The notes beneath the pieces are model-generated. The model had not been told where the DNA came from. It worked only from the letters and a program-made list of their open reading frames with translations, and did not search any database. From assembly GCA_017308215.1 (NCBI GenBank), contig JAFKFQ010000387.1, positions 1 to 33,645 of the forward strand: DNA of 33,645 nt. The letters are read 5' to 3'. Of the stretch, positions 8,852-31,572 are shown in pieces. Both the position numbers and the translations under genes were made by a program. This DNA is from a bacterium. Lineage in GTDB: Bacteria; Planctomycetota; Planctomycetia; Gemmatales; Gemmataceae. How positions within the stretch are numbered: the stretch's first letter is position 1; the number at the start of each line of letters is the position of its first letter.

Positions 8852-11254
8852 ATGCCCCTGCCCCGCCCCCTCTTCGTCGGTCTCCTCACACCCGCTGCGC
8901 TCGTCGCCGTGGGCGGCTTCACGCCCACGCCCGCGCAGCCGGTACCGGAGGCGAAAGCGTTTGCGGCCGAGGGGGTTGCGTACCTCAAGAAGCACTGCCT
9001 CTCGTGCCACGGCGACACGCGGCCGAAGGCGGACCTGTCGCTGACCAAGTACACGACCGCCGAGTCGCTGCTGAAGGACCGGAAGGTCTGGCAGCGCGTG
9101 CAGGAGGTGATTCACGGCGGCGAGATGCCGCCCGAATCGCGGCCGCGACCGGCGCCGGGCGAGTCGGAAGCGTTTCTGAAGACCGTCGGTGGCATCTTCG
9201 ACCACCACGACCGCACGGCGCCGCCCGACCCGGGCCGCGTCACCATGCGGCGCCTGAACCGCCTCGAGTACAACAACACGATCCGCGACCTCGTCGGCGT
9301 CGATTTCACCCCAGCCGACGACTTCCCTTCGGACGACGTCGGCCACGGCTTCGACAACATCGGCGACGTGCTGACGCTGCCGCCGGTACTGCTCGAGCGC
9401 TACCTCGCGGCGGCCGAGAGCGTGATGGACCGCGCGATCGCGGTGACGCCGGCCAAGTCGCCCGAGCGCTGGCAGGGCGGGCAGTATCTCGAACCGGCCT
9501 CGGCGAAGGCGCCGCTCAAAAACAACTGGCGCGTCGTGACCGTGAAGGACGGCGGCGACGCAGTCGAGACCGGCCCCGTTCACACCTCGTACCAGGTGCC
9601 GAAGGACGGCGAGTACGTCTTCCGCGCCCGCGTCCGCGCCGAGACGGAGGGGAAGGAACCGGTCCGCATCGCCGTCCTCGCGGTGTGCGACAAGGACGCG
9701 CCGGGGGTGGCCAGCGACGCGGACGTGGAGAAGCTCAGTGGCGCCGCTCTGAAGGGGCTGCGCCCGTTCGTCATTCTCAAGACCGAAGAAGTGAGGGGGG
9801 CCGAGAAGGCGCCGCAGATCGTCGAGGCGAAGGTGCCGGCGAACCTCGGCGTGAAGCGGATGGCGGTGGCGCTCGTGAAACCGAAGGCCGGCGAGCCGGC
9901 GCCGACGCTGTACGTCCAGAACCTGCACCTGAAAGGCCCGCTCGACACACGCCCCGCCACGCACCGCAAACTCCTCGCCACCGACGAGTCGAAGCCCACC
10001 GCCGAGCGCACGAAGGACGTGCTGGCGCGTTTCGCCACGAAGGCGTACCGCCGGCCGGTTGCGGCGGAGGAACTGGCGCGGCTCGTGAAGCTCGCCGAGT
10101 CGCGCACCGCGGCGGGTGAGTCGTGGGAGGCGGGCGTGCAGTTCGCCATGACCGCCGTCCTCGTGTCGCCTAAGTTCCTGTTCCGCGTCGAGCTCGACGA
10201 CCGCCCCGAAGGCCCGGAGGCGCGGCCGCTCAACGAGTTCCAGCTCGCGTCACGACTGAGTTACTTCCTGTGGGCGTCGATGCCGGACGACGAACTCTTC
10301 GGCCTCGCGTCGAAGGGCGAACTCACCAAGAGCCTGCCGCAGCAGGTGAAGCGGATGCTCGCCGACCCGAAGGCGAACACGCTGGTCGAGTCGTTCGCCA
10401 TGCAGTGGCTGCAACTCCAGCCGCTCAAGAACGCCCAGCCCGACGCCAAGCTGTTCCCGCAGTTCAACGACCGGCTGCGGGCGGCGATGCTGCAAGAAAC
10501 GAAGCTGTTTCTCGGCGAGATCGTCCGCCAGGACCGCAGCGTCCTCGACATCCTCGACGCCGACTTCACCTACGTGAACGCCGACCTCGCCCGCCTCTAC
10601 GGCCTCAAGGACGGCCCGCGCGGCGGCCGGCGGCAGGATGAGTTCGTCCGCATCGCGCTCGCCGGCACGAACCGCGGCGGCGTGCTGACGCAGGCGAGCG
10701 TGCTGACGGTCACGTCGAACCCGACGCGCACGAGCCCGGTGAAGCGCGGCCGGTGGGTGCTGGAACAGCTCCTCGGCACGCCCCCGCCCCCGCCCCCGCC
10801 GAACGTGCCCGAGCTCGAAGAAGCCGGCAAGAAGACGACGGCGCTGACGCTACGGGCGCGGATGGAGGAGCACCGCAAGAACCCGGCGTGCGCCAACTGC
10901 CACGCCAAGATGGACCCCCTCGGGTTCGGCCTGGAGAACTTCGACGCCGTGGGCGCGTTCCGCATGAAGGACGGCGGCTCGCCCATCGACCCGTCCGGCG
11001 AACTGCCCGGCGGGGTGAAGTTCGCCGGCCCGGTGGAGCTGAAGAAGATTCTGGTCGGCAAGAAAGAGCTGTTCGCCCGCTGCCTGACCGAGAAGCTGCT
11101 GACCTACGGCCTCGGCCGCGGGCTGGAGTTCTACGACAAGCGCGCCGTGGACAAGGTCGTCGCCGGCCTGGCGCGGCAGGATTACAAGTTCTCGGCGCTG
11201 GTGACCGAGATCGTGACCTCCGACCCGTTCCGCATGCGCCGCGGCTCGCGTTAG
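8852..11254 (+). CDS. Planctomycete cytochrome c-type protein (DUF1587-DUF1592-DUF1588-DUF1585)
   Basis: An 800-residue exported protein with an N-terminal signal segment (residues 1-28). A heme site CLSCH at 49-53 with a candidate Met92 ligand in GGEMPP forms the PSCyt part. It is followed by MRRLNRLEYNNTIRDLVG (DUF1587), a carbohydrate-module-like stretch, RLSYFLWASMPDDELFGLA (DUF1592), RGGVLTQASVLTVTSNPTRT (DUF1588), a second heme-like site CANCH at 680-684, and EKLLTYGLGRGLEFYD (DUF1585). This architecture is characteristic of Planctomycetes and is normally paired with a DUF1552 protein, as here. The role is unproven; a periplasmic redox or polymer-processing complex is suspected. I start at 8852 because it begins the signal peptide; 8801 would add 17 unlikely residues. 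Confidence 0.93.
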   Translation: MPLPRPLFVGLLTPAALVAVGGFTPTPAQPVPEAKAFAAEGVAYLKKHCLSCHGDTRPKADLSLTKYTTAESLLKDRKVWQRVQEVIHGGEMPPESRPRPAPGESEAFLKTVGGIFDHHDRTAPPDPGRVTMRRLNRLEYNNTIRDLVGVDFTPADDFPSDDVGHGFDNIGDVLTLPPVLLERYLAAAESVMDRAIAVTPAKSPERWQGGQYLEPASAKAPLKNNWRVVTVKDGGDAVETGPVHTSYQVPKDGEYVFRARVRAETEGKEPVRIAVLAVCDKDAPGVASDADVEKLSGAALKGLRPFVILKTEEVRGAEKAPQIVEAKVPANLGVKRMAVALVKPKAGEPAPTLYVQNLHLKGPLDTRPATHRKLLATDESKPTAERTKDVLARFATKAYRRPVAAEELARLVKLAESRTAAGESWEAGVQFAMTAVLVSPKFLFRVELDDRPEGPEARPLNEFQLASRLSYFLWASMPDDELFGLASKGELTKSLPQQVKRMLADPKANTLVESFAMQWLQLQPLKNAQPDAKLFPQFNDRLRAAMLQETKLFLGEIVRQDRSVLDILDADFTYVNADLARLYGLKDGPRGGRRQDEFVRIALAGTNRGGVLTQASVLTVTSNPTRTSPVKRGRWVLEQLLGTPPPPPPPNVPELEEAGKKTTALTLRARMEEHRKNPACANCHAKMDPLGFGLENFDAVGAFRMKDGGSPIDPSGELPGGVKFAGPVELKKILVGKKELFARCLTEKLLTYGLGRGLEFYDKRAVDKVVAGLARQDYKFSALVTEIVTSDPFRMRRGSR

Positions 11255-11344
11255 GCCGGGGCGCAAGCCCCGGATGGTTGCAACGCGTTCGCGGTATTCG
11301 CGTCTTCTGGCCCAACGGCATCCGGGGCTTGCGCCCCAGCCTAA
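11251..11344. repeat. 26-base inverted repeat overlapping the cytochrome gene's stop codon
   Basis: The arms are 11251-11276 and 11319-11344, complementary at 25 of 26 positions. The left arm contains the TAG stop of the cytochrome gene (11252-11254) and itself folds as CCGGGGC-GCAA-GCCCCGG, a seven-pair stem with a GNRA-type loop. The right arm folds as GGGGC-TTGC-GCCCC. The whole could form one long stem or two small ones, and lies between two same-strand genes that are normally co-expressed. It may act as an RNA processing or attenuation site, or be a repetitive element. Confidence 0.8.
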
Positions 11345-11368
11345 CACGAACCGTTCGAGGAGCCCGCC

Positions 11369-12706
11369 ATGCCCCGCCCGACGATCAGCCGCCGGCTCGC
11401 CCTCAAGGGGCTCGGCGTGTCCATCGGCCTCCCGTGGCTCGAAGCGATGGGGCCGCAGACCGCCTGGGCGCAAGGCCCGGGCACCGCGAACCCCGCCCCG
11501 AACCGGATGTGCGTCCTGTACGTCCCGAACGGGAAGAACATGGCCGACTGGACGCCGGCCGCGGAGGGGAGCAACTTCGAGCTCCCGCACATCCTCCGCC
11601 CGCTCCAGCCGGTGAAGGACAAGTTGCTCGTCCTCACCGGCCTCACCGCCGACAAGGCCCGCCCGCACGGCGACGGCGGCGGCGACCACGCCCGGGCGCT
11701 CGGCGCGTTCCTCACCGGCTCCCAGCCGCGCAAGACGGATGGCACCGACATCCGCGCCGGCGTCAGCGTCGATCAGGTGGCCGCGGCCCGCGTCGGCGAC
11801 CAGACGCGTCTCCCGTCGCTCGAACTCGGTTGCGAGGCCGGGGCGATGGCCGGGAACTGCGACAGCGGGTACTCGTGCGTCTACTCGTCCACGATGTCGT
11901 GGCGGTCGGCGACGCAGCCGCTGCCGAAGGAGGTGAACCCGAAGCTCGTGTTCGAGCGCCTCTTCTCGACCACCCCCGACAACGTCCGCCAGCGCCAGGA
12001 CGCCCGCCGCCGCAGCGTCCTCGACTTCGTCCGCGACGACTCGCGCGAGCTGACGGGCCAGCTCGGCGCCGGCGACCGCCGCAAGCTCGACGAGTACCTG
12101 TCGGCGGTGCGCGACGTGGAACTTCGCATCCAGCGTGCCGCCTCGCTGCCGCCGGTGCGCACGCCCGACGTGGCCGCTCCGACCGGCGTCCCGGGGAGCT
12201 ACCCGGAGCACATCCGCCTCATGTACGACCTGATCGCGCTGACGTTCCAGGCGGACGTGACGCGGGTGGTGACGTGCGTGCTGGCGAACGAGGGGAGCAA
12301 CAAGCCGTACCCGTTCGCAGGGGTGAGCGAGGGGCACCACGACCTGTCGCACCACGAGAACAAGGCCGAGAAGAAGCAGAAGCTGCGCGACATCAACACG
12401 TTCCACACGACGCAGCTGGCGTACTTCCTGGAGAAGCTGAAGGGCATCCGCGAGGGCGACGGCACGCTGCTCGATCACTGCATGGTGGCCTACGGCAGCG
12501 GGAACAGCGACGGGAACGCCCACAACCACGACGACCTGCCGATCCTGCTGGCGGGTGGCGGGTGCGGGACGCTGCGGACCGGGCGGCACGTGAAGTACGC
12601 CCGCGAGACGCCACTGAACAACCTGTGGGTCGGCCTGCTCGACCGGATGCGGGTGCGGGTGGACGCGCTCGGCGACAGCACCGGCGCGCTGCCGAACCTG
12701 GCGTAA
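11369..12706 (+). CDS. DUF1552 secreted protein, partner of the cytochrome gene
   Basis: A 445-residue protein with a Tat-like N-terminus (SRRLALKGLG, then a hydrophobic stretch ending in AWAQG near residue 35). The DUF1552 body shows MCVLYVPNGKNMADWTP, LVLTGLTADKARPHGDGGGDHARALGAFLTG and a C-terminal HCMVAYGSGNSDGNAHNHDDLPILLAGGG block, related to the alkaline-phosphatase-like DUF1501 proteins. The conserved His/Asp clusters suggest metal binding. In Planctomycetes this gene nearly always follows a DUF1592-type cytochrome, and the two probably act together outside the inner membrane. GAGGAG lies six bases before the ATG. The biochemical reaction is unknown. Confidence 0.92.
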   Translation: MPRPTISRRLALKGLGVSIGLPWLEAMGPQTAWAQGPGTANPAPNRMCVLYVPNGKNMADWTPAAEGSNFELPHILRPLQPVKDKLLVLTGLTADKARPHGDGGGDHARALGAFLTGSQPRKTDGTDIRAGVSVDQVAAARVGDQTRLPSLELGCEAGAMAGNCDSGYSCVYSSTMSWRSATQPLPKEVNPKLVFERLFSTTPDNVRQRQDARRRSVLDFVRDDSRELTGQLGAGDRRKLDEYLSAVRDVELRIQRAASLPPVRTPDVAAPTGVPGSYPEHIRLMYDLIALTFQADVTRVVTCVLANEGSNKPYPFAGVSEGHHDLSHHENKAEKKQKLRDINTFHTTQLAYFLEKLKGIREGDGTLLDHCMVAYGSGNSDGNAHNHDDLPILLAGGGCGTLRTGRHVKYARETPLNNLWVGLLDRMRVRVDALGDSTGALPNLA

Positions 12707-12712
12707 GGCAAG

Positions 12713-12810
12713 GCATTTTTTGACAGGATGAACAGGAACAAGCAGGATTGAAAGCAAAGACCGATTTCGATTTCATCCCGCTTGATCCTGTTCATCCTGT
12801 CAAAAAATGC
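12713..12810. repeat. Perfect 25-base inverted repeat between convergent genes
   Basis: The arms 12713-12737 and 12786-12810 are exact reverse complements, and pairing continues inward with few mismatches to about 12751 and 12773. The arms carry a ~9-base periodicity of the ACAGGATGA type and end in a run of six T (left) or A (right). Read from either side this gives a strong stem with a U-rich edge, so it can serve as a terminator for the DUF1552 gene (+, stop 12706) and the ceramidase-like gene (-, stop 12820). It is AT-rich against its surroundings, which hints at a mobile or foreign repeat. Confidence 0.85.
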
Positions 12811-12819
12811 CGCGTTGCT

Positions 12820-14241: not shown

Positions 14242-14323
14242 GTGGGGCTCCGGGGGCGGGAGTCCCAAGTATCCGCCGCCAGGCCGGGCGGGGCAAGCGG
14301 CTGCCGTTCACAGGCGGCTGCGG

Positions 14324-14329
14324 TACACT
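14324..14329 (+). promoter_or_regulatory. Possible -10 element (TACACT) for the TIGR03067 pair
   Basis: TACACT lies 29 bases before the ATG at 14359, followed by a clear Shine-Dalgarno GGAGG at 14349-14353. The matching -35 is poor (CTGCCG at 17-base spacing). It is offered because it is the only AT-containing box in the 117-base divergent spacer. Confidence 0.3.
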
Positions 14330-14358
14330 GACGGCCGGTTCCGCCCACGGAGGTTCGC

Positions 14359-14787
14359 ATGACGCGATTCGCTCTCGCCGGTGTGGTGTTCGCGGCCGGG
14401 GTCGCCGGCCCGCTCGCGGCCGACGACGCCACCCTGAAGTCCCTCGCCGGCTCATACAAGGCGGTCGGCCTGCACAAGTACGGCGAGGAGGCGACGGCCG
14501 ACCTCGTGGCCGAGATCCGGGCGAAGATCGAGAAGGACGAAATCACCTTTACGGTCAAGGGGAAGGAGTTCCCGGCGAAGCTCAAGGTGGACCCGGCGAA
14601 GACCCCGGCGCACCTGGACCTGTCCCCGGCCGACGGCCCCGAGAAGGGGCGAACCTTTCTCGGTATTTACAAGCTGGAGAAGGGCGAGCTGGTGGTGGCG
14701 TTCACCGAAAAGGCCGACCGCCCGACCGACTTCAAGGGCGGCGAGGACGTGCTGGTGATGCGGCTGAAGCGGGACGGCGGGAAGTAG
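14359..14787 (+). CDS. TIGR03067 secreted protein, copy 1
   Basis: A 142-residue precursor with a signal peptide (residues 1-20, LAADDA cleavage region). The mature part is a small beta-barrel-like domain of the planctomycetal TIGR03067 type: LAGSYKAVGL at the start, a KFTVKG-like strand (ITFTVKGKEF), KVDPAKTPAHLDL, GIYKLEKGELVVAF and the closing RPTDFKGGEDVLVMRLKR. The function is unknown; a lipocalin-like carrier or cell-envelope role has been assumed. GGAGG sits five bases before the ATG. A paralogue follows 32 bases downstream, so the two are a tandem duplication in one transcript. Confidence 0.88.
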   Translation: MTRFALAGVVFAAGVAGPLAADDATLKSLAGSYKAVGLHKYGEEATADLVAEIRAKIEKDEITFTVKGKEFPAKLKVDPAKTPAHLDLSPADGPEKGRTFLGIYKLEKGELVVAFTEKADRPTDFKGGEDVLVMRLKRDGGK

Positions 14788-14819
14788 CGGGTCCGTTCAC
14801 ACCTTACCGAGGGCGACCG

Positions 14820-15254: not shown

Positions 15255-15265
15255 CCCACCCCGCG

Positions 15266-15284
15266 GGGGCGGTTCTACCGCCCC
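15266..15284. terminator. Hairpin terminator between convergent genes
   Basis: GGGGCGGT-TCT-ACCGCCCC gives eight pairs around a three-base loop. It lies 11 bases after the TIGR03067 stop, and the stop codon of the Hsp70-like gene (15275-15277) sits in the loop edge, so it can serve both strands. There is no U-run, so termination would not be a classical intrinsic type. Confidence 0.55.
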
Positions 15285-17113
15285 TCGCGGACGTTGTACT
15301 CCAGCTTCCACCGCTGCTTCCCGTCGCGGCTGAACAGCCACAGCTCGAGTTGGCCCACCGGCGTCACCTTGCTGTGCAGGTGGACCGGCACCACCTGCCG
15401 CGCCGCGGTGCCCTTCGCCTCCAGCGTCGTCTTGATCGGGGCGAGCTCGTCCACCTGCCCCTCCCACTCGTCCACCACCGTGCCCGCCGTGTCCGTGCGG
15501 CGGGTCGTCGAACCGAGGAAGCGGAACTCCGCCTCCTCGCCCGTCACCAGCCCGAACTCGGCGCCGGGGATGTCCGCCTCCGTCCCTTCCTCCATCCCGA
15601 ACGGGGCCACGCACAGCGCCTTGATCGGCGGGGCGATCCCCGGAACCGCCGGCGCCGCCGTCTCGACCCCAACGTAGTACGCCCGCGCCGTGCCGCCGCG
15701 GATGCGCACGCCCTTGCCGCGCCGCACCAGCCCGTAGTACGCGGCGCCGCGCGCCACCGCGAGGTCGAGGTCGGCCCCGGGCAGCTCGCGCGGGGCGTCG
15801 GCCTTCACGCTCTTCGCCCACGCGCCCAGCACCCCGAGGAGGCGGTTGCGCATCGGGTCGGCCTTGAACACACCACCGTTGAAAAGGATGGCGCTGGGGA
15901 GCGCGACGCCCGCCTTCTTGCCGCCCTTCTTTGCACTCTCGCGCCCCGCCAGCGACTCCGCCTGCCGGCTGAGGAACGACGCGAGGTGGCGCGTGATGCC
16001 GGGGTCGGAGACGTAGGGGAGGCCGAGTTCCTGCAACCCGGCGGTGCGGGCGCGGGCGGGCTCGGCGTCGCGCGGGCACTCGGGGAAGAACCCGTCGATC
16101 AGCACCGCCTCGGCGTCGGCCCGCGGCAGGTCGTGCTTGATCGTCCCGCCGACGAGGCTGCGGCCCTTGCCCAGCACCGTGACCGGCGCCTTCGTCAGCT
16201 TCGGGTTGGCGAATAGTTGCTCCTTGGCGCTGCGGCAGGCGTAGGTGAGTTGCACCATCTGGCCGGCGTCGAGCTTCGTGTTGTTCTTGGCCAGCACCTG
16301 CGCCACCTGGTAGGCGAGCGTCAGGTCCATGTTGTCGCCGCCGAGCAGCAGGTGGTCGCCGACCGCGAGGCGCGTCAGGTTCAGGTTGCCGTTCTCCTCG
16401 GCGACCTCGATCAGGGTGAAGTCGGTCGTCCCGCCGCCCACGTCGGCCACGAGCACGAGGTCGCCGACGCCGACGTTCTCGCGCCACTTGTCGCCGGCGC
16501 GGTCGAGCCAGGCGTAGAACGCCGCCTGCGGCTCCTCGAGGAGCGTGAGGTGCTCGAAGCCGGCGGCGCGGGCGGCCTCGACGGTCAACTCGCGGGCGGC
16601 GGCGTCGAACGACGCGGGGACCGTCAGCACGATGTCCTGCGCTTCGAGCTTGTCGGCGGTGTCTTTGCCCGGTCCGTTGTGGTTCCAGGCTTCGGCGAGG
16701 TGCTTCAGGTAGCGTGTGGCCGCCTCGACCGGTGACACGCGGCGGCCGGTCTCGGGGGCGCGGAACGGCAGGATCGGCGCCTTGCGGTCGGCCCCTGGGT
16801 GGCTGAGCCACGACTTCGCCGACGCCACGAGGCGTGTCGGCACCTGCGAGCCGAAGGCGCGGGCGAACTCGCCGACGGCGTAGTCGCGCTGGGCGTCCCA
16901 CGGCAGCTTGAGCGCGCCGGCCGGCTGCTCTCCGTCGCCGGGGAGGTACAGGAACGACGGGAGGAGCGACCGCTCCTCGACCGCCCCCTGCCCGACGACC
17001 TGCGGGACCGCGAGCGTGACGACCGGGGGGTTCTCGCCGGCGGCCGCGTCCACGTAGGCAAGGGCGGAGTTCGTGGTGCCGAGGTCGATGCCGACGACGT
17101 ACCGGGAGGCCAT
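15275..17113 (-). CDS. Hsp70-family (DnaK-like) ATPase
   Basis: A 612-residue cytoplasmic protein. The actin-like ATPase signatures are GIDLGTTNSALAY at 8-20 (phosphate loop 1), VLVADVGGGTTDFTLIEVAE (phosphate loop 2) and ILFNGGVFKADPMRNRLL (the adenosine-site region, in the form typical of this Hsp70 subfamily and not of DnaK). A beta-rich C-terminal portion (REL..FRFLGSTTRR, VPVHLHSKVTPVGQLELW) corresponds to a substrate-binding part. Longer relatives carry a DUF3731 extension that is absent here. No DnaJ or GrpE gene is adjacent, so it is a specialised chaperone and not the housekeeping DnaK. AGGAG lies six bases before the ATG, and a good -10 box is upstream. Confidence 0.92.
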   Translation of the reverse strand: MASRYVVGIDLGTTNSALAYVDAAAGENPPVVTLAVPQVVGQGAVEERSLLPSFLYLPGDGEQPAGALKLPWDAQRDYAVGEFARAFGSQVPTRLVASAKSWLSHPGADRKAPILPFRAPETGRRVSPVEAATRYLKHLAEAWNHNGPGKDTADKLEAQDIVLTVPASFDAAARELTVEAARAAGFEHLTLLEEPQAAFYAWLDRAGDKWRENVGVGDLVLVADVGGGTTDFTLIEVAEENGNLNLTRLAVGDHLLLGGDNMDLTLAYQVAQVLAKNNTKLDAGQMVQLTYACRSAKEQLFANPKLTKAPVTVLGKGRSLVGGTIKHDLPRADAEAVLIDGFFPECPRDAEPARARTAGLQELGLPYVSDPGITRHLASFLSRQAESLAGRESAKKGGKKAGVALPSAILFNGGVFKADPMRNRLLGVLGAWAKSVKADAPRELPGADLDLAVARGAAYYGLVRRGKGVRIRGGTARAYYVGVETAAPAVPGIAPPIKALCVAPFGMEEGTEADIPGAEFGLVTGEEAEFRFLGSTTRRTDTAGTVVDEWEGQVDELAPIKTTLEAKGTAARQVVPVHLHSKVTPVGQLELWLFSRDGKQRWKLEYNVREGR

Positions 17114-17236: not shown

Positions 17237-19618
17237 ATGGGCTCCGCACCGTCCGCCCCGCTCCCGATCGCCCGGCTGACCGGGGTCGGGCTGGTGGTGT
17301 TCCTCGCCAACGCGGCGCTGCTCGTGCTGCAGCTCGTGGCGAGCCGACTGCTCGCCCCGTTCATCGGCTCCGACCTCTACACCTGGACCGGCATCATCGG
17401 CGTGTTCCTCGCCGGCATCGCGCTCGGGAACGCCTACGGCGGCCGCATCGCCGACAAGTACCCGCAGCCGCGCACCCTCGTCGCGCTGCTCGGCGTCGGG
17501 GCGCTGGCGGCGCTGTGGATGGCCGTCTTCCCCATGCTCCTCGCCGCCAGCGGGGCGCACACCGGTATCCCGCTCGGGCCGCGCATCCCGGTCCTCGCGG
17601 CGGTCCTGTGCCTCCCCGCCGGGTTCGTCCTCAGCCTGCTCACGCCGGTGGCGATCAAGCTCGGCCTTCCGGACGTGTCAAAGGCCGGCAGCGTGTCCGG
17701 GCTGATCTTCGCGCTGAGCACACTCGGCTGCCTCCTCGGCAACTACGTCACCGGGTTCTACCTGGTGCCGATGTTCACCATCAACTCGCTCGTGTACGTC
17801 GCCGCCGGGCTGCTCGCGGTCACGGCCGTCGGAGTGTTCCTCGTGCTGAAGGCCGACCCGCCAGCGAACGACCCGGTGACCCCGCCCGAGGTGCCGGTCA
17901 CATCCGACGAGCCGGTCCCACCGGCGGTCAACCCCGCCGCGTTCGCCGACATCCGCCACGCCTACGCGGTCGTGTTCATCGCCAGCTTCTGCGGGATGGC
18001 GTTGGAGCTCGCGGCCAGCCGGGTCATCGCCCAGCACATCGGCGTCAGCCTGTTCTCGTGGACCGGGGTGATCGGCGTCATGCTCGCTGGGACGTGCGTC
18101 GGCAACTTCGCCGGCGGCCTGTTCGCGGACAAGGTGAACCGGCCGGACAGCGGGTGGAACCCGCGGATGGCGCTCGGCGGGTCGCTCGTGCTCGCCGGCG
18201 GGCTCACCATCCTGGTACTCGTCACCAGTGCGCTGCTGTCGCGCGAGAAGTTCTTCACCGGCGAGGGGCTGATCTACCAGATCGTGATGTGGAGCTTCAC
18301 GCTGTTCTTCGCCCCGATGGCGGTCCTCGGCACGATCTCGCCGCAGGTCATCCGGCTGGCCGTGCCGGACGTGGCGCACGCCGGCCGCGTCGCCGGCCGC
18401 GTCTACGCCTGGAGCACCGCCGACGCCATCGCCGGCACCTTCGCCACCGGGTACGTCCTGATCTCCGGCCTGGGCACCGACCGCACCGTCATCGTGATCG
18501 CCGCCGGCCTCGCACTGGTGAGCATGACGGTGGCCCAGGTGTGGAAGGACAACACCCTGCTGTACCTGCTCAGCATCGTCCTCGGCGGGGTGACCGGCGG
18601 CGTGATCCTGACGTGGGAGCCGGTGAAGCCGGGCACCGACCTGGTCGCCCAGCGCGACACCAACTATTACCGCATCCGGGTGACGATGGAGTCCGAGGAC
18701 TACCCGTTCATCCTCAACCTGTACCTCGACCACCTCCTCCACTCGACGGTGAACACCGACGACCCGCTGTTCATCTACTACAAGCACGAGGAGATCCAGA
18801 TCGAGTTCGAGCGGCTGGCGAAGGCGCACGGCCCGACCCCGCGCGTGCTGCTCATCGGCGGCGGGGGGTACACCCTGCCGCGGGCCACGATGAAGCTGGT
18901 CCCCGAGGTGCGGATGGACGTGGTCGAGATCGACCCGGGGGTGACGAAGGTCGCCTACGACGTGCTCGGGCTGAAGAAGAACGAGAACCACCGCGACATC
19001 AACATGGACGGCCGACAGTACGTGGCGGAGGTGGCGCCGGCCGGCAGCTACGACCTGGTGATCCAGGACGCGGTGAACGACCTGTCGGTGCCGTCGCACC
19101 TGATGACGAAGGAGTACAACGACGCGGTCAAGAAGGCGCTCAAGCCGAACGGCACGTTCCTGCTGACCATCATCGACAGTGTGGAGCACGGGAAGGTGTG
19201 GCGGGCGTCGATGGCGACGCTGAAGCAGTCCTTCGCGCACGTCCACCTGCTCGCGTCGAGCGACCCGCCGCCGCTCGAGCGGCCCGCCGACCCGAAGGCG
19301 GCCGAGGACTGGGAGGCGCGGGTGGCGGCCTGGGCGTCCGGGCGGCAGGTGTACGTCATCTACGCCTCGGACACGCCGCTCGACCTCGCCGCGCTGAAGG
19401 CGGCGACCGACACCCAGGTGACGCCGACGTGGAACGAGCCGCGCGCCGCCGCGCTCGGCGCCGCGGCGACGGCACCGGTCGTGCCGTTCTTCACGAAGCT
19501 GGTGGACCCGCGGCTGCTGGAGCCGTTCCTGGCGAAGGAGCCCGGCGTGATCCTGACCGACCAGTTCGCCCCGATCGACAACCTCATGGCCGAGGTATTC
19601 CGCCGGCGGAACCAGTAG
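17237..19618 (+). CDS. Fused polytopic membrane / spermidine-synthase-like protein
   Basis: A 793-residue inner-membrane protein. The first ~470 residues hold a dozen or more hydrophobic segments in two related halves: ASRLLAPFIGSDLYTWTGIIG in the first is echoed by ASRVIAQHIGVSLFSWTGVIG in the second, each followed by a LAG...GN..GG..ADK stretch. From ~475 the chain becomes soluble and resembles spermidine synthase: RVLLIGGGGYTLPRATMK near 535, then VVEIDPGV and LVIQDAVNDLSVPSHLMTKEY. Such fusions are annotated as fused MFS/spermidine synthase; whether they make polyamines is unproven. It ends flush against the next gene: its TAG and the opposing TAG form TAGCTA. Confidence 0.88.
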   Translation: MGSAPSAPLPIARLTGVGLVVFLANAALLVLQLVASRLLAPFIGSDLYTWTGIIGVFLAGIALGNAYGGRIADKYPQPRTLVALLGVGALAALWMAVFPMLLAASGAHTGIPLGPRIPVLAAVLCLPAGFVLSLLTPVAIKLGLPDVSKAGSVSGLIFALSTLGCLLGNYVTGFYLVPMFTINSLVYVAAGLLAVTAVGVFLVLKADPPANDPVTPPEVPVTSDEPVPPAVNPAAFADIRHAYAVVFIASFCGMALELAASRVIAQHIGVSLFSWTGVIGVMLAGTCVGNFAGGLFADKVNRPDSGWNPRMALGGSLVLAGGLTILVLVTSALLSREKFFTGEGLIYQIVMWSFTLFFAPMAVLGTISPQVIRLAVPDVAHAGRVAGRVYAWSTADAIAGTFATGYVLISGLGTDRTVIVIAAGLALVSMTVAQVWKDNTLLYLLSIVLGGVTGGVILTWEPVKPGTDLVAQRDTNYYRIRVTMESEDYPFILNLYLDHLLHSTVNTDDPLFIYYKHEEIQIEFERLAKAHGPTPRVLLIGGGGYTLPRATMKLVPEVRMDVVEIDPGVTKVAYDVLGLKKNENHRDINMDGRQYVAEVAPAGSYDLVIQDAVNDLSVPSHLMTKEYNDAVKKALKPNGTFLLTIIDSVEHGKVWRASMATLKQSFAHVHLLASSDPPPLERPADPKAAEDWEARVAAWASGRQVYVIYASDTPLDLAALKAATDTQVTPTWNEPRAAALGAAATAPVVPFFTKLVDPRLLEPFLAKEPGVILTDQFAPIDNLMAEVFRRRNQ

Positions 19619-21049
19619 CTACTCGTTCGGCCTGGCCAAGAGGGCCGGGTCGAGTCGCTCGTAGTGGTGGTGGTCCGCGACCACCGCCTCGCCCGCCTTC
19701 TTCCCGGCCAGCCGGATCTCGATTCGGGTTGGCCGCCGCACCCCGTCCCGCTCGGTGTACTCGGCGTACAGTGTCTCCCGCGCGACCGCCCCCGGATCCC
19801 GGTCGTCCTTCCGCACCAGCAGGTGTGTCTGGGCATCGAACCACAGGGTCATGTCCGGCCACCCGACCCGCGCCACCCGCACCCCGACCGCCGGCCGCCC
19901 GGCGACCTCGGCCCGGCCGGCCGACGTCAACTTCGCGGTCGGATCGTCAGCAAGCGGAGCGACCTCGAACCCCCACCCGACGGCAAGCGTCTCCTGCCAG
20001 CCCAGGATCTCATCGGCGGTGAGTGGGCGGGCGGACCGACCGGCCTCCTGGAGCCACCCCTTCCCGTTCGCGTACACCTGCGTCCGGGGCCCCCTCTTCC
20101 CCCCCACCGTCTCGGTCCGCACCTGCCGGGCGGCGGTCGGGAAGTCTATCCAGAGTTCGGTCTCCACCTCCGCGAATGGGCTGGTCGGGCTCCCCGGGTC
20201 GCTGAACACCCGGGCCGTCTCCCGGGTGTACCGGCAGCGGAGCTTCCGCTGCCGCTCGGCCCCGCCGGTCGCAGCCACGTGTTGCCGGAGCACTTCCCGG
20301 GGGTCGGCGGCCGGAGCCGCCCCCGGCTCCCGGAACAGCCCCAGGTCGATGGCGTCGAGCACCTTGTACTCCGTGATCCGCTCCTCGGTCGTCTTCACCC
20401 CGGCCACGTACCGGACCCGCTTGGTCGGCCTCTTCACCCCTCCGAAGTCCTTGTACTCCAGCAGCAACTGATCCTGAATCCCGACCGGGGACGGGGTCGT
20501 GTACTGAGCGAGGAGGCCGGTCCCGCGGTCGAACCACAGGGTGACGTCGGGCCGCCCGGTGCGGGTCACCCGCACCCCGTCGGCCGGGCGGCCGGCGACC
20601 TCACCCGGTCCGGTCGCGGCCAGGGTGAACCCGGGATCGGTGACCAGTGGAAGGAGGCTGGTGACGCCGTCTCGGTAGATGTTGCCGAGCCCGGCCTCCA
20701 GGTTCTTCCCCTCGACCTGGCGGCGGGTGCCGTTCACGGTGGCCCACCCGGCCCCGCCGGCGAACGCCGTGATCTCGACCAGTTCCCCGTTGGGGGCGGA
20801 GAGTGTCACCTCGGACCGGTACCGGACCCCGGCCTCCCGCCAGTTCCGGGCGGTGAACGGGACAGCCTGGCCGCGGACGAACACCGTCCCCTCGCCCCGG
20901 ATGAACAGCTTCGTGTCCTGCGCGAGCTTGTCCGCCCCGCCTGCCGCGTCAATCGCCCGGCGGACGAGCGCAGACGGCTCTGTGCCATTCTGGGCGGGGA
21001 GTGGATGCGCCCAGAGAACCATTCCGACGGTGACGAGGAGGATCCGCAT
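19619..21049 (-). CDS. Secreted protein with two LolA/LppX-like repeats
   Basis: A 476-residue precursor with a signal peptide (residues 1-19, cut after PLPAQ). The mature chain is an internal duplication. GEVAGRPADGVRVTRTGRPD followed by TLWFD in the first half matches AEVAGRPAVGVRVARVGWPD followed by TLWFD in the second, and both halves continue with LL.Y....GV.RPT and end near LF/LLARP. Each half looks like an outer-membrane-lipoprotein-sorting (LolA/LppX) barrel that binds lipid-like ligands. No lipobox is present, so the protein is probably soluble or loosely bound outside the inner membrane. The ATG at 21049 starts the signal peptide. A perfect palindrome lies 12 bases upstream. The function is inferred from fold resemblance only. 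Confidence 0.75.
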   Translation of the reverse strand: MRILLVTVGMVLWAHPLPAQNGTEPSALVRRAIDAAGGADKLAQDTKLFIRGEGTVFVRGQAVPFTARNWREAGVRYRSEVTLSAPNGELVEITAFAGGAGWATVNGTRRQVEGKNLEAGLGNIYRDGVTSLLPLVTDPGFTLAATGPGEVAGRPADGVRVTRTGRPDVTLWFDRGTGLLAQYTTPSPVGIQDQLLLEYKDFGGVKRPTKRVRYVAGVKTTEERITEYKVLDAIDLGLFREPGAAPAADPREVLRQHVAATGGAERQRKLRCRYTRETARVFSDPGSPTSPFAEVETELWIDFPTAARQVRTETVGGKRGPRTQVYANGKGWLQEAGRSARPLTADEILGWQETLAVGWGFEVAPLADDPTAKLTSAGRAEVAGRPAVGVRVARVGWPDMTLWFDAQTHLLVRKDDRDPGAVARETLYAEYTERDGVRRPTRIEIRLAGKKAGEAVVADHHHYERLDPALLARPNE

Positions 21050-24429: not shown

Positions 24430-24435
24430 ATGATA
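24430..24435 (-). promoter_or_regulatory. Possible -10 element (TATCAT) close to the FAD gene start
   Basis: On the minus strand TATCAT is followed by six bases and then the ATG at 24423. A -35-like TTGATA is at 24457-24462, but the 21-base spacing is too long. If used, transcription would begin at or next to the start codon. Confidence 0.35.
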
Positions 24436-24486
24436 GCCCCGCCGCGGGCGGCCGTATATCAACCTCACCTGCTCTGGAGTTCCCTG

Positions 24487-24613
24487 ATGCGCTACGGCCC
24501 GCTCGCCGCGTTCGCACTTACTGCTTTCGCGGTCGTGTTGCCCGCCCAACCCGCCGCGTCGCCACAGGCCGCGCTCGTCGCCGGGGTGAAGGAAATCGGC
24601 GGCGGCGGCGGTC
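24487..24613 (+). pseudogene. Signal peptide and N-terminus of the M60 peptidase in a different frame
   Basis: An ATG preceded by TGGAG at eight-base spacing opens a reading frame whose first ~37 residues are a signal peptide and the family-type start ALVAGVKEIG. The frame then enters a GGC-rich tract (about 24598-24613) and degenerates into Gly/Arg sequence, while the frame two positions over begins to read AVVAAGEGGGG and the peptidase body. The two pieces clearly belong to one ancestral gene. A deletion within the GGC tract that changed the frame, or a sequence error, explains this best. Confidence 0.65.
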
Positions 24614-26641: not shown

Positions 26642-26659
26642 TGGCGGGGCTCGGGGCTT

Positions 26660-26697
26660 CCGTAGGTCGGGTCGAGTCCGCGAGGCCCGACCTACGG
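26660..26697. terminator. 12-pair inverted repeat between convergent genes
   Basis: CCGTAGGTCGGG (26660-26671) pairs exactly with CCCGACCTACGG (26686-26697) around a 14-base loop. It lies 18 bases after the M60 stop and contains the stop codon of the opposing small gene (26692-26694). A bidirectional terminator is the simplest reading; the 31513-31572 element shares its outer CGTAGGT arms. Confidence 0.65.
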
Positions 26698-27000
26698 GAG
26701 CATGTCCGCCGCGAAGAGGCCGCCTTCGTCGGCGTATCCCAACAACACCTGTGTGAAATACACCAGTCTTGCCTCGGCGTGCTCCGTGATTCGGTACTCG
26801 TCGAGCCAGGCATTGATGGCGGGCGCGTCGGCCATCCACAGCCGCTGGGCGGCACGCAGATCGGCCAGGTCCGTCGGGGACGCATGCCGGAGGAAGTCGA
26901 AGATCCGCTCGTCGAATTGGTAGCGGCCGTATCGCTCGGCCGGAGCCGCTACCCACGCCAGCGCCGGGGGGAGTTTCGACCAGTCCAACATTACTGCCAT
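26692..27000 (-). CDS. Small protein of unknown function, coupled to a receiver gene
   Basis: A 102-residue soluble protein I do not recognise. It is rich in aromatic and acidic residues (WSKLPPALAWVAAPAERYGRY, FDFLRHASPTDLADLRAAQRLW) and has no signal peptide, membrane segment or cysteines. It overlaps the end of the receiver gene: ATG codons at 27000 and at 26991 are both possible, the second forming a TAATG overlap with the receiver stop and giving 99 residues. The tight coupling suggests that the product works with the receiver, perhaps as its target, but this is inference. Its stop codon lies within the 26660-26697 repeat. Confidence 0.62.
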   Translation of the reverse strand: MAVMLDWSKLPPALAWVAAPAERYGRYQFDERIFDFLRHASPTDLADLRAAQRLWMADAPAINAWLDEYRITEHAEARLVYFTQVLLGYADEGGLFAADMLP

Positions 27001-27341
27001 CCCGTGGTCTCCGAATTCAGTGCCGCTTCGATTCCCGCGAAGCGTGTCTTCGGGCACGCGGCGTCCGCCCCCGCGGCGAGCAGTGCCGCGTTCCCGTCCT
27101 CGTGTGCTGATACCGCCGCCACGCGCGGCCGCGGGTCGAGGTGCCGCACGAGCGCGACCACCTCGGTCCCCTTCCCGTCGTCCAGGTCGTAGTCGGTCAG
27201 CACGACGTCGAACGCGGCCGCGAGCAGCGCGGCCTTCGCGGCGGCGACCGACGGCACTACGGTCAGGTCGTGGGCGCTGAGGAACTGCTTTCCCGCCACC
27301 CGCACGAAAACCGCGTGGTTCTCGACCCACAGGATTCGCAC
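26991..27341 (-). CDS. Stand-alone receiver-domain protein with altered acidic pocket
   Basis: A 116-residue single receiver domain starting at GTG. The phosphoacceptor is D50 in VVLTDYDLDDG, S78 occupies the Ser/Thr switch position in AAVSAH, and K98 lies in CPKTRF where KP is usual. The acidic pair at the first strand end is E7-N8 instead of two acids, so Mg binding and phosphorylation may be weaker. No output domain or kinase is adjacent. It runs into a small unknown gene with overlapping ends. The only gene upstream on this strand, DUF3500, is separated by a strong terminator, so this pair has its own promoter in a short ~67-base gap or depends on read-through. Confidence 0.8.
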   Translation of the reverse strand: MRILWVENHAVFVRVAGKQFLSAHDLTVVPSVAAAKAALLAAAFDVVLTDYDLDDGKGTEVVALVRHLDPRPRVAAVSAHEDGNAALLAAGADAACPKTRFAGIEAALNSETTGWQ

Positions 27342-27352
27342 AGCAGTTGCCC

Positions 27353-27392
27353 GGAAAACGAAAAAGCGGCGCGGGGCGAGCCCCGCGCCGCT
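27353..27392 (-). terminator. Rho-independent terminator of the DUF3500 gene
   Basis: On the minus strand a 12-pair stem (AGCGGCGCGGGG with its complement, four-base loop, 27365-27392) is followed by TTTTTCGTTTT. It starts 17 bases after the DUF3500 stop at 27409. This is the most classical intrinsic terminator in the window. Confidence 0.85.
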
Positions 27393-27408
27393 GGGCGGAA
27401 CCCCAAAC

Positions 27409-28449
27409 TCACGCCAGCCGGCTGCTGACGTTCACGAAGGTGTGGATGTGCGGCAGGGCGCGGAAGCTCCACACGAAGCCCGGGCCTTCCAGCCGCCAGA
27501 AGCTCCACGGCTCGCGGGCGGTCCGCTCGCCCTCGGTGTAGAACGCGAACGCCAGCCGGTCCATCCCGCCGTTCGCCCGCACGATCTCCATCACCTCGTC
27601 CCCGTCGGCCCGGCGGTACGGCGACACCAGCTCGCGCATCACCCGCTCCACCAGCCCCTTCTGGTCGCGCGTCAGCGCCGTGAACGCCACCCCCGGCGCC
27701 TTGTAGTCGGCCCGCGGTAGCTGCACCGACGCCACCCCGTCGCGCCACGTCCCCGGCTTCACCGCCTGCGGCTTCTGCTCGTCGGACAATGACGCGAACA
27801 GGTCCATGAGCGAGCGGGTCTGGTGGTAGAACACGTTGTTCGTGGCGTACCCGCTCGGGCTGTGGCCGTAGTACAGCGGCCCGCCGAACGCCGCGCCCTG
27901 CTCCGAGTTGCCGTCGCAGCGGATGGTCAGGTGGTGGCCGGCGAACATGAGCGAGAACGGCCGCTCGCTGGCCGCCTCGCCGTAGAACAGGGCGCCGATG
28001 CTCTCGAAGTCGCCGCTGTTGTCGAACCGGCCGTTGCGGCTCAGCAGGCGGTAGCCCTCGTTGCCGTTGGCGAGCGACTTGAAGATGCGGTCGAGCTGCT
28101 CGATCTGCGTGCGGGTGTAGGCGGCGCCGATGCGCACGTCGGCGTTCGGCGGGGCGTTGTGCGTGGCGAGCCGGGCCGGGGCGCCGCCCTTCGGGCCGAA
28201 GTCCCACGGCTTCACGACCTTCGCCTTCTGCTCGGGCGTCAGCGTGGCGAACAGTTCGCGGATCATGGCCTCGCTGGTCGCCTGCTGCTGGGCGCGGGCG
28301 GCCCGGGCCTTCGCCAGCGGCGAGAACGTCTCGGCGGCCGGGATCGCGCCGGCGACGGCCACGGCCCCGAGGGTGCGGAAGAAGTCGCGGCGGCCGAGTT
28401 CCGGGGTGTCGCAGTCGGGGCACGGGACGGGCTTGTCGGCGGGCTGCAT
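27409..28449 (-). CDS. DUF3500 protein with Tat-type signal
   Basis: A 346-residue precursor. It begins with a CPDC pair (Cys10, Cys13), then GRRDFFRTLGAVAVAGAIPA, a twin-arginine signal (RR at 20-21), implying export in folded form. The DUF3500 body shows MFAGHHLTIRCDGNSEQGAAFGGPLYYGHSPSGY, LSDEQKPQAVKPGTWRDGV and a C-terminal FAFYTEGERTAREPWSFWRLEGPGFVWSFRALPHIHTF block with conserved Trp and His. The function of the family is unknown. The Cys pair before the signal is common in planctomycetal Tat substrates and may bind metal. GGAGG lies eight bases before the ATG. It is monocistronic: a long inverted repeat lies upstream and a terminator downstream. Confidence 0.88.
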   Translation of the reverse strand: MQPADKPVPCPDCDTPELGRRDFFRTLGAVAVAGAIPAAETFSPLAKARAARAQQQATSEAMIRELFATLTPEQKAKVVKPWDFGPKGGAPARLATHNAPPNADVRIGAAYTRTQIEQLDRIFKSLANGNEGYRLLSRNGRFDNSGDFESIGALFYGEAASERPFSLMFAGHHLTIRCDGNSEQGAAFGGPLYYGHSPSGYATNNVFYHQTRSLMDLFASLSDEQKPQAVKPGTWRDGVASVQLPRADYKAPGVAFTALTRDQKGLVERVMRELVSPYRRADGDEVMEIVRANGGMDRLAFAFYTEGERTAREPWSFWRLEGPGFVWSFRALPHIHTFVNVSSRLA

Positions 28450-28561
28450 GAGACGGGCCTCCGGCGGGGACGAGAACGGGAAAGGGTTTCGGGCGATGCG
28501 TAGGTATTACACCCGATCCGCGCGGGCCTGTCACGCGCGGATTCGATGAGTGTTCCGCGGT

Positions 28562-28686
28562 GGGCGAACGGCCGGCGTGAGCCGGCTGGTCGTTGGTACG
28601 GGTGCCTGGGACGGCGACCGATCACCCACGTTGTTCGCTCGGGCACCTGCACCAACCACCAGCCGGCTCACGCCGGCCGTTCGCCC
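28562..28686. repeat. Long inverted repeat with 29-base perfect arms
   Basis: The arms 28562-28590 and 28658-28686 are exact reverse complements. Pairing continues inward for about 16 more bases with four mismatches (28591-28606 against 28642-28657). Each arm carries the core GCGAACGGCCGGCGTGAGCC followed by GG, which itself folds as CCGGC-GTGA-GCCGG, a GNRA-type loop. It starts six bases past the stop of the HD gene at 28693 and can terminate that transcript. Other copies of the core lie at 31536-31557 and, degenerate, 106-130. Confidence 0.85.
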
Positions 28687-28692
28687 GGAGGG

Positions 28693-29697
28693 TCAGTCGT
28701 ACCCGCCGCCGCCCTCGCCGATCAGGTCGCCGTTGCTGCCGCCCTTGTAGAACCGGCGGCCGAGGTTATGGTTGTACGGCGTCCACGCCGACGGGTTGTT
28801 CTTGTCCTCCCTCAGCTCCCGCGCCACTTGGTGCATCCGCGTGTCCATCATGTCGATGACGTGGAGCAGCATCGCCTCCGGCGTCATCGGCACGCGCGGG
28901 CTGCCCCACTCGAGCGTGCCGTGGTGGCTGAGGATCATGTGCTGGAGCCGCAGCATCAACTCGCGTGGGATCGGCTCGCCGGTCAGATCCGGCACCTTCA
29001 GCGCGGCGGTCGTCAGCAGCTCGACGCCGATCGCCAGGTGGCCGACCAGCTGCCCCTCGTCGGAGTAGCCGAAGGCGCGGGCGTAGGTGAGTTCGCGGAC
29101 CTTCCCGGCGTCGTGGAGGAAGACGCCCATCAGGAGCAGGTCGCGGTCCACGAACGGGTACAGCGGCAGGAGGCGCTCGGCGGCGTCCATCATGGTGACG
29201 ACGTGCTCGAGCAGCCCGCCGACGTAGGCGTGGTGGAGCTTCACCCCGGCCGGGCATGCCGCGAACTGGCGGACGAAGGCGTCGTCCATGAGCAGGCACT
29301 CGGCGAGCGCCCGCAGGTGCGGGTTGCCGAGCTTGAACAGGTAGCCGCGCAGCCGGTCCATCAGCTTCGGGATGCTCTGCTCGGTCTGCGGTAGGAAGTC
29401 CGACAGATCGACCTTCCCCGGCTCCTCGCGCTCGACCGACGTGAGGATGACCTGGAGCGCCCCTTGGAACAACTGTACCTTGCCGGCGGCGTGGACGAAG
29501 TCGCCGGGGTCGAACCCGCGCGCCACGTTGTCGCCGGCGTTCCACAGCCGCGCCGAGATGCCGCCGGTGCGGTCGCGGAGTTCCAGCTGCAGGTACGGCG
29601 CCCCGTTCCGGTTCACGCGGAGCTGCTTGTCGGCGACGAGGTACACGTCGTCGAGCGGGTCTCCGTCGCGGAGCTGGTCCACGGTGCGGCGGGGCAT
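28693..29697 (-). CDS. OB-fold/HD-domain 3'-5' exoribonuclease (YhaM-like)
   Basis: A 334-residue cytoplasmic protein. Residues 15-90 form an OB-fold nucleic-acid-binding domain (VYLVADKQLRVNRNGAPYLQLELRDRTG, then GDFVHAAGKVQLFQGALQVILT). Residues 150-300 form the HD phosphohydrolase domain with H165 in GLLEHVV, the HD pair H195-D196 in MGVFLHDAGK, HH at 258-259 and D282/D285 in VIDMMD. This order matches YhaM/CBF1, a 3'-5' exonuclease that trims single-stranded RNA or DNA. All metal ligands look intact. AGGA lies eight bases before the ATG at 29697; the open frame upstream is non-coding repeat. It is divergent from the ECF sigma operon. Confidence 0.9.
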   Translation of the reverse strand: MPRRTVDQLRDGDPLDDVYLVADKQLRVNRNGAPYLQLELRDRTGGISARLWNAGDNVARGFDPGDFVHAAGKVQLFQGALQVILTSVEREEPGKVDLSDFLPQTEQSIPKLMDRLRGYLFKLGNPHLRALAECLLMDDAFVRQFAACPAGVKLHHAYVGGLLEHVVTMMDAAERLLPLYPFVDRDLLLMGVFLHDAGKVRELTYARAFGYSDEGQLVGHLAIGVELLTTAALKVPDLTGEPIPRELMLRLQHMILSHHGTLEWGSPRVPMTPEAMLLHVIDMMDTRMHQVARELREDKNNPSAWTPYNHNLGRRFYKGGSNGDLIGEGGGGYD

Positions 29698-29752
29698 CGG
29701 GCTAATCCTGGGGGTCGGCGGTACGGGGCGAACGGGTACGCTAGGGATGCTC

Positions 29753-29840
29753 GGGACGGGGAACAGGAGACGGGAGACAGGAAACTCACGAGTTCGGGTG
29801 TCACACGTCCCCTGTTCCCCGTCCCCTGTCTCCCGTCCCG
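29753..29840. repeat. Heptad-based inverted repeat between divergent genes
   Basis: The arms 29753-29787 and 29807-29840 are complementary at 27 of 34 aligned positions. The left arm divides into seven-base units (GGGACGG, GGAACAG, GAGACGG, GAGACAG) and the right arm into the complementary ones (CCCCTGT, TCCCCGT, CTCCCGT). It resembles 6044-6140 in design although the unit sequence differs. It lies between the HD gene and the ECF sigma factor and would fall in the leader or promoter of one or both. Confidence 0.7.
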
Positions 29841-29910
29841 CATCTACAACAACCGCCCCGGCCGCGCGAACGCCCGGCCCGCCGCCCGCGTACAGGGTGT
29901 AGGGAGCGCT

Positions 29911-30543
29911 GTGCCCGATCCCGCCCGCCTTCCCGCCGAGACGGACGAACAGCTCCTCGCCCGCCTCCGGGCCGGAGACCGGTCGGTGTTCGGCACGCTC
30001 GTGAAGCGGTACGAGCGAGAACTGTTCGGCTACCTCCGCCGGTACGTCGGCGACGACGACTTGGCCGACGACGTGTTCCAGAACACGTTCATCGCGGTGT
30101 TCCGCAAGATCGGCCAGTACGAGCCCGGGCGGGCGGCGCGGCCGTGGCTGTACGCCATCGCCACCAACCAGGCGATCGACGCGCTGCGGCGGCGGACGCG
30201 CCGCGGCGACCGCTCGGCCGACGCCCGCACCGCCCCCGACGAGGAGGGCGAGCCGCGGCCGCTGTTCGAGCTGGTGCCCGCCCCCGGCCCTGACCCGGGC
30301 GAGAGCGCCGACCGCGCCGAGCAGGCCGGGCGCGTCCGCGCCGCGGTGGACCGGCTCCCGGACCTGTTGCGCCAGGTGGTCGTGCTGGCGTACTTCCAGG
30401 GGCTGAAGTACAAGGACATCGCCGACGTACTGGGCATCCCGGTCGGCACGGTGAAGTCTCGGCTCCACGCGGCGACGACGAAACTGACGGAAGACTGGAC
30501 GGCGGCCGAAGACCACACACCCCGTCCCGTGGGTGAACCATGA
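29911..30543 (+). CDS. ECF-type sigma-70 factor
   Basis: A 210-residue protein. Region 2 spans ~24-96 (LVKRYERELFGYLRRYVGDDDLADDVFQNTF, then FRKIGQYEPGRAARPWLYAIATNQAIDALRRR). An acidic linker follows, then region 4 (RLPDLLRQVVVLAYFQGLKYKDIADVLGIPVGTVKSRLHAAT), the -35-reading helix-turn-helix. Start at GTG 29911 with AGGGAG at 29901-29906, five bases upstream; the longer frame runs through the repeat. Its TGA overlaps the ATG of the anti-sigma gene by four bases (ATGA), the usual coupling for a sigma/anti-sigma pair. Target promoters are unknown. Confidence 0.93.
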   Translation: MPDPARLPAETDEQLLARLRAGDRSVFGTLVKRYERELFGYLRRYVGDDDLADDVFQNTFIAVFRKIGQYEPGRAARPWLYAIATNQAIDALRRRTRRGDRSADARTAPDEEGEPRPLFELVPAPGPDPGESADRAEQAGRVRAAVDRLPDLLRQVVVLAYFQGLKYKDIADVLGIPVGTVKSRLHAATTKLTEDWTAAEDHTPRPVGEP

Positions 30544-31517
30544 CCGACGAACACGACGACCTGCCCGGCTACCTCTTCGACCTGTTCGACCCCGCCGAGC
30601 ACGCCGCCGTTGCCGCGCGCCTCGCCGCCGACCCCGACCTCGCCGTCCGGCTCGCGCGGCTTCAGGCGGCCCTCGCCCCGCTCAAGGCCGAGCCCGCCCC
30701 CGAGGCGCCCCCCGGGCTCGCGCTGCGTGCGCTGGCCCGCGTCGCCGAGTACGTCGTTGCCACCGAGCCGCGGCAATCAGCGCGCCCGACGCCGGTGGAG
30801 GTCATCGCCGCCGACGTGGCGCCGGAGCGCGTCGGCCCGCGGCGCCTCCCCGTCACCGACCGGCCGGAGGCGCGGACGCTCGGCGGTCGGTTCCGCATCG
30901 AGCTGGTGGTCGCGGCGGGGATCGGGCTGATCGGCGTCGGGCTCGCCTCGACCTTCGTGATGAAGGCCCGCCAGCAGAGCGACACGGTCGCGTGCCAGGC
31001 CAACCTGATGACGCTTCACCAGGGGCTGTCCGGCTACGCCGACGCGAACGCCGGCCGCTTCCCGGAGGTCGGCACCCCCGCGCACCCGGTCGCGGGCTCG
31101 TTCGTGGCAGCACTGGCGGAAAACGGTCAGGTGCCGCCCGGCTTCCGCGCCGTCTGCCCGGCCGCCGGCGGCACGCCGGTTCTGGACGCGCGCGTCGTGC
31201 CGGCGACAACGGTCGGGTACGCCTACACGCTGGGCCACCGGGGGACGGACGGGCTGGTCCTCGGCCCGCGCCGGGCGAACGGGATCGACGAGGAGAACGA
31301 CCTGATCCCGGTGTGCGCCGACATCCCGGTCGGCGCCGCGGGCGCCCCGCACACGCACGGCCAGAACGTCCTCTTCGCCGGCGGCAACGTCCGCTTCGCC
31401 ACCGTCCCGACGGTCGGGCTGAACGGTGACGACATCTACCGCAACTTCCTCGGCCGGGTCGCCGCCGGCGTGGACCGGGCGGATGCTGTGCTGGGGGTGG
31501 GAAGCGATCGACCGTAG
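30540..31517 (+). CDS. Membrane anti-sigma factor with pseudopilin (DUF1559-like) outer domain
   Basis: A 325-residue single-pass protein. Residues 1-70 are an acidic helical cytoplasmic part (LPGYLFDLFDPAEHAAVAARLAADPDL) of the anti-sigma type, without the HxxxCxxC zinc motif. A linker leads to one membrane segment at ~120-141. The outer part starts ACQANLMTLHQGLSGYADANAGRFP and ends HTHGQNVLFAGGNVRFAT, which match the opening and closing elements of planctomycetal DUF1559/H-X9-DG pseudopilin domains. It starts by four-base overlap with the ECF gene, so the two are made together. It probably holds the sigma factor at the membrane until an external cue is sensed. The stop codon is inside the 31513-31572 repeat. 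Confidence 0.82.
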   Translation: MTDEHDDLPGYLFDLFDPAEHAAVAARLAADPDLAVRLARLQAALAPLKAEPAPEAPPGLALRALARVAEYVVATEPRQSARPTPVEVIAADVAPERVGPRRLPVTDRPEARTLGGRFRIELVVAAGIGLIGVGLASTFVMKARQQSDTVACQANLMTLHQGLSGYADANAGRFPEVGTPAHPVAGSFVAALAENGQVPPGFRAVCPAAGGTPVLDARVVPATTVGYAYTLGHRGTDGLVLGPRRANGIDEENDLIPVCADIPVGAAGAPHTHGQNVLFAGGNVRFATVPTVGLNGDDIYRNFLGRVAAGVDRADAVLGVGSDRP

Positions 31518-31572
31518 GTGCGAAGCCCCGACGTGGCGAACGGCCGGCGTGAGCCGGACCCGACGACCTACG
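31513..31572. repeat. Composite inverted repeat containing both flanking stop codons
   Basis: CGTAGGT (31513-31519) pairs with ACCTACG (31566-31572). Inside is the 31536-31557 copy of the GAACGGCCGGCGTGAGCCGG core with its GTGA loop. The TAG of the anti-sigma gene (31515-31517) and the TAG of the opposing sigma gene (31568-31570) both come from the outer arms. It probably terminates both convergent transcripts. Confidence 0.7.

Follow-up and report, generated by a model that had tools for sequence, protein, structure and literature searches.

In a planctomycete genome, mobile palindromic repeats that insert near gene 3' ends very probably come to supply the stop codons of some of the genes they meet, and insertions that would lead to read-through are very probably selected against. 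The window from which this was derived is a stretch of 33,645 nucleotides, contig C48 of assembly G000 (9.0 Mb in 766 contigs, 85% complete). A sequence-only reading of this window had named five stops inside hairpins or repeat arms and had proposed that they form one recurring arrangement, caused either by repeats that replace the native gene end or by terminators that came to contain the stop in the course of their evolution. Gene ends were checked with a codon-usage gene caller built for G000, which reproduced all gene ends of that reading. The five stops are located at 11252-11254 (gene 8852/8801-11254, plus strand), 15275-15277 (gene 15275-17113, minus strand), 26692-26694 (gene 26692-26991, minus strand), 31515-31517 (gene 30540-31517, plus strand) and 31568-31570 (gene 31568-32545, minus strand). 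All five coordinates are correct, each stop terminates a called gene and each lies within a hairpin or repeat arm. As a single arrangement, however, the proposal could be maintained only in part: the stops at 11252, 26692 and 31568 are read from REP/REPIN-like repeats that share a G(T)TAG tag on their 5' side or an end resembling such a tag, whereas the positions of those at 15275 and 31515 are ancestral. RNA folding energies, scored against dinucleotide shuffles, gave z values of -7.4 (11249-11345), -4.4 (15256-15292) and -4.3 (26658-26699), and the fold of 31511-31574 was weak (z only -2.0 and -1.4, with 6 and 20 of 200 shuffles equally stable). When inverted repeats were called strictly across the genome, only the 11252 case was retained.

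Three repeat families could be described. In family A, GTTAG precedes the hairpin GCCGGGGC-GCAA-GCCCCGG, and the units occur mostly as inverted pairs of about 71 bp. Family B consists of TTYC-GTAG and the hairpin GTCGGGtcGAG...CGAggCCCGAC, mostly as inverted pairs of about 153 bp and sometimes as single units. Family C, GGCGAACGGCCGGCGTGAGCCGGC, carries a TGA in its hairpin loop, and its inverted pairs measure 82 or 123 bp. Head-out inverted pairs numbered 23, 36 and 46 in families A, B and C, with median spans of 71, 153 and 107.5 bp. Family A comprises 66 units; family B has about 218 units genome-wide (up to 3 mismatches) versus 8 for a reversed-pattern control. Spacers hold 99 of 128 sampled B units and 122 of 133 sampled C units.

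Judged from their sequence layout, families A and B are built like REPs and REPINs. The features that they have in common with GTAG REPs and REPINs are many, mainly intergenic palindromic units of 20-40 bp, head-out pairing and termini supplying TAG stops. In family B the GTAG tag itself is well conserved (G 95%, T 90%, A 83%, G 95%). Family A is tagged by GTTAG and not by GTAG, and is thus called REP-like here, with membership in the class unproven. A convincing Y1/RAYT gene, the remaining mark of such systems, was not found in the assembled part of G000 (85% complete), which gave only two weak Y1_Tnp matches and zero matches to the Y1 protein of the relatives. In genus relatives, GTAG-tagged hairpins of other sequence do flank IS200-type Y1 transposase genes, and where tested the proteins of these genes score below the curated REP_Tyr_transpos cut-off. 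In the case of L190, L195, L196, L197 and L202 these flanking hairpins are CCAGGGGTGACAACCCCTGG and variants of it, a REPtron-like layout.

The first capture in the window is a REPIN-like element of family A (11250..11345, plus strand), made up of GTTAG, the hairpin GCCGGGGCGCAAGCCCCGG and then a second unit in inverted orientation, with arms at 11250-11276 and 11319-11345. Its TAG at 11252-11254 is the stop of gene 8852-11254, a PSCyt/PSD gene with the Pfam domains DUF1592/1588/1587/1585/1595. The syntenic ortholog in the closest relative, G004, is 87% identical and ends in ...RRGRAPQ and TAA, versus ...RRGSR and the family A TAG in the window. Another palindrome, CCGCTTGCGGCGTAGCGTCGCGACGCTACGCCGCAAGCGG, is found in the orthologous G004 spacer (L170), so that the repeat found at one and the same gene junction varies with the lineage.

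In the case of 26692, a single family B unit, CCGTAGGTCGGG...CCCGACCTACGG (26661..26696), has 12-base arms at 26661-26672 and 26685-26696, and its CTA at 26692-26694 ends the ORF 26692-26991 on the minus strand. This small gene matched no Pfam family; homologs are present in 10 other genomes of the host's family and terminate about 6 residues sooner than the window gene. Together with the minus-strand ORF 26991-27341, which has a response-regulator receiver domain, it lies between convergent neighbours (26642-27408), the orthologs of which are separated by only about 57 bp in G004; the difference reflects either an insertion specific to one lineage or a loss on the G004 side.

The third site is a degenerate composite element (31512..31573), in which B-like ends, CGTAGGT...ACCTACG, surround a family C unit, GGCGAACGGCCGGCGTGAGCCGG. 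Its TAG at 31515-31517 and its CTA at 31568-31570 are the stops of both flanking genes. G004 shows the empty site, TAA-CCGCG-TCA, with a convergent spacer of 5 bases versus 50 in the window. Gene 31568-32545 takes its final VS and its stop from the element end GTTTCGTAGG; the G004 ortholog ends in ...PAAE* with TGA. Gene 30540-31517, on the other side, ends in DRP* at the same residue as in five relatives (TAA/TGA/TAG/TAA/TAA), so the position of this stop is ancestral, although it now lies within the end of the element.

To describe how often such coincidences occur, a census was made over 1.57 Mb of G000 with 1280 stops. This sample was enriched for contigs with families A and B, and its copy densities are thus not genome averages; offsets and frames are unaffected by this choice of loci. 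Among copies with a same-strand stop within 80 nt, the tag or loop stop of the repeat was the gene stop in 3 of 29 cases for A, 9 of 54 for B and about 7 of 63 for C. Families A and B together give an exact coincidence in 12 of 83 nearby copies; the excess over chance is specific to the families, and only in this form does the claim of the sequence-only reading stand. No copy of the three families was found in the 1.57 Mb with a gene stop at +1 to +80 nt beyond the repeat stop, which would mark read-through. All 19 captures, in turn, have the repeat's own stop in frame, a 19:0 split with a probability near 1e-9 if the three frames were equally likely. In simulations in which real elements were inserted at random within a range of -30 to +60 nt relative to stops, offset 0 was reached by 11-12% (observed 10-17%), and about two read-throughs arose per capture. 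Thus the captured fraction fits random insertion and it is the read-through class that is missing, with none observed. A binomial comparison of offset 0 with uniform placement is a rough figure only and was replaced by this simulation, because insertions before a stop collapse many positions onto offset 0.

The captured ends also carry bases of the repeats. Seven of the nine captured B ends have the element's 5' bases TTCG before TAG or TAA, and six of the nine genes end in Ser (TCG-TAG), versus 5.4% of all genes. As TTYC is conserved among copies, this excess of Ser indicates that the last codon comes from the element. Captured C copies always use a single frame, GGCGAACGGCCGGCG-TGA in the exact copies.

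Orthologs were then compared in five genomes of the genus, found with one chimeric query of C-termini. The closest relative, G004, lacks the repeats at captured sites and usually has TGA or TAA there, with TAG in just 1 of about 13 captured genes. Tail length equals that of G004 in 3 of 12 captured genes versus 20 of 24 uncaptured controls (Fisher p = 0.001), and in all 6 of the controls that end in TAG (p = 0.009 versus captured genes). The changes range from -2 to +3 residues, with a single case of +11; captured L017, L071 and window gene 30540 have exactly the same length as their relatives. The expectation that repeats alter C-termini was therefore borne out for most captured genes (tails differ in 9 of 12, versus 4 of 24 controls), but not at 15275 and 31515, where the ends are unchanged. 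Stop-codon switching was discarded as evidence, since control TAG genes switch too (5 of 6 between G000 and G004).

The mechanism that very probably accounts for the observed stop coincidence, frame exclusivity, repeat absence at orthologous sites and altered tails starts from at least three short mobile repeat families (A with GTTAG, B with GTAG, C with a loop TGA) inserting around gene 3' ends. If a copy lands in the stop or only a few codons before it, with its built-in TAG or TGA in frame, the gene terminates there, and the captured protein mostly loses or gains 0-3 residues. The other two frames would append a repeat-encoded tail; none was seen, most likely because selection purges them. 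Insertion past the stop is the common outcome and leaves a hairpin 10-50 nt downstream. We infer that the frame bias is most simply explained by purifying selection against added tails and that a Y1 (IS200/RAYT-like) transposase mobilises the repeats. The proposal that repeats insert at or near stops and replace the gene end is thus supported for the mobile-repeat cases, is only half right for 31515 and fails for 15275. A further idea, which we consider unlikely, is that the unrelated families A to C each converged on a clean frame-ending stop (tag TAG or loop TGA); if stopless repeats were purged from gene ends, this would be a selected property, and captured hairpins may regulate message termination or stability.

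Transposases of the IS200/IS605 type integrate beside a short target sequence. The repeats could accordingly have been placed 3' of an existing GTAG, so that genes ending in xxG-TAG were targeted and their ends left unchanged. This would suit L017, L071 and 30540, whose stop positions match those of relatives, and G does precede 192 of 264 TAG stops. Nevertheless, target choice is an unlikely explanation: the TTYC before GTAG is conserved among copies and hence part of the element, TAG is rare at the G004 orthologs, tail length is altered in most captured genes, and family C, with its TGA in a loop, is left unexplained. GTAG targeting as the sole explanation was therefore disfavoured on the grounds of TTYC, G004 and the tails, although for a few of the captures, those where the stop has not moved, a GTAG already in place could have served. 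Stop capture by inserted repeats, selected for frame, remains the preferred explanation.

Hairpins in general have to be kept apart from these families. Arms of at least 10 bases cover 2.5% of stops versus 0.7% in shuffled sequence, but they cover 14-19% of positions 10-50 nt downstream, and hairpin density is highest 20-40 nt past the stop. Hairpins that contain a stop thus form the upstream edge of the ordinary downstream hairpin distribution. By the refutation test attached to the sequence-only reading a general enrichment of stops in hairpins did not survive, and it was dropped. The same distribution bears on the idea that terminators evolved to contain the stop and so link the end of translation to stem formation. 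The hairpins do fold well, and in E. coli, REPs are reported to stall ribosomes when they lie within 15 nt of a stop (PMC12306157). Yet T runs are absent, a stop within an arm is rare, hairpins normally lie 10-50 nt past the stop, and the captured hairpins are lineage-specific repeats missing in relatives, which makes this coupling extremely improbable. Chance would mean that dense hairpins in the short spacers of a G+C-rich genome occasionally cover a stop. It holds for 15275 and for the abutting stops at 19616-19621, where the stops are ancestral, but it is very unlikely to explain the captures, as the exact tag coincidence and the frame exclusivity would be unexpected.

The hairpin at 15275 (15260..15291, minus strand; GGGGCGG-TAGAA-CCGCCCC) is real and is not among families A, B and C. 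It had been taken as a terminator with the stop in its loop. An intrinsic terminator combines a G+C-rich stem with a T run. As neither strand has a T run at 15255-15295, the hairpin does not qualify as a canonical terminator. All five relatives, which lack the hairpin, end in VREGR* at this position, mostly with TAG, and three have TAG followed by AAT, lacking the 3' arm; the hairpin hence arose around an old stop, and the terminator assignment was abandoned. A palindrome at 19605..19632, likewise not among families A, B and C, spans the abutting convergent stops TAG and CTA (19616-19621), and the stop of gene 17237-19618 is common to the window and G004. Both sites represent secondary structure around an ancestral stop, outside the repeat-capture mechanism.

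GTAG REPs often furnish the ORFs beside them with a TAG stop (Di Nocera, De Gregorio, Rocco 2013; PMC3733652). Repeat-supplied stops are therefore an already described, modest side effect of mobile repeats. Like the GTAG REPs and REPINs of PMC3733652, family B has a GTAG tag, a short hairpin, inverted pairs and a location near gene 3' ends. Differences are the GTTAG of family A, the pair span of about 153 bp and conserved TTYC of family B, the loop TGA of family C, and a cognate transposase that was not found in G000 (85% complete). RU-type and QMITE small mobile sequences (PMC2759123, PMC5896051) are likewise non-autonomous repeats at gene 3' ends that replace the native stop and supply C-terminal residues; their repeat-read tails reach about 30-35 residues, whereas here there is no read-through and mostly 0-3 residues change. 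The E. coli REPs that lie within 15 nt of stops (summarised in PMC12306157) also place a hairpin at or directly after the stop, a likeness of position; uncaptured A and B tags lie at least 5-7 nt and mostly 10-40 nt past the stop. Families A, B and C are apparently new when set against the literature, as distinct from a repeat database. The contribution lies in the three families, in the finding that captures are confined to one frame and in what the relatives show: a counted case of small mobile repeats rewriting protein C-termini, whose ratio of 19 captures to 0 read-throughs offers an easy way to read selection on the insertion of repeats. It is also a warning that in such genomes C-terminal residues and stop usage partly reflect repeats and not genes.

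Other repeats lie in the window as well. A family C pair (28562..28686) occupies the spacer before the stop of gene 28693-29697, which does not come from the repeat. At 12712-12811, 6 nt past a TAA stop, there is a 95% complementary inverted repeat of the CAGGATGAACAGGA type, different from families A to C. The spacers 6038-6139 and 29744-29840 hold purine-rich degenerate inverted repeats (AGAACGCAGAGTGCAGAATGC and GGGAACAGGAGACGGGAGACAGG). Elsewhere in the genome (L056, L060, L101, L103), TGA-bearing arms of similar simple repeats make up many of the other in-arm TGA stops.
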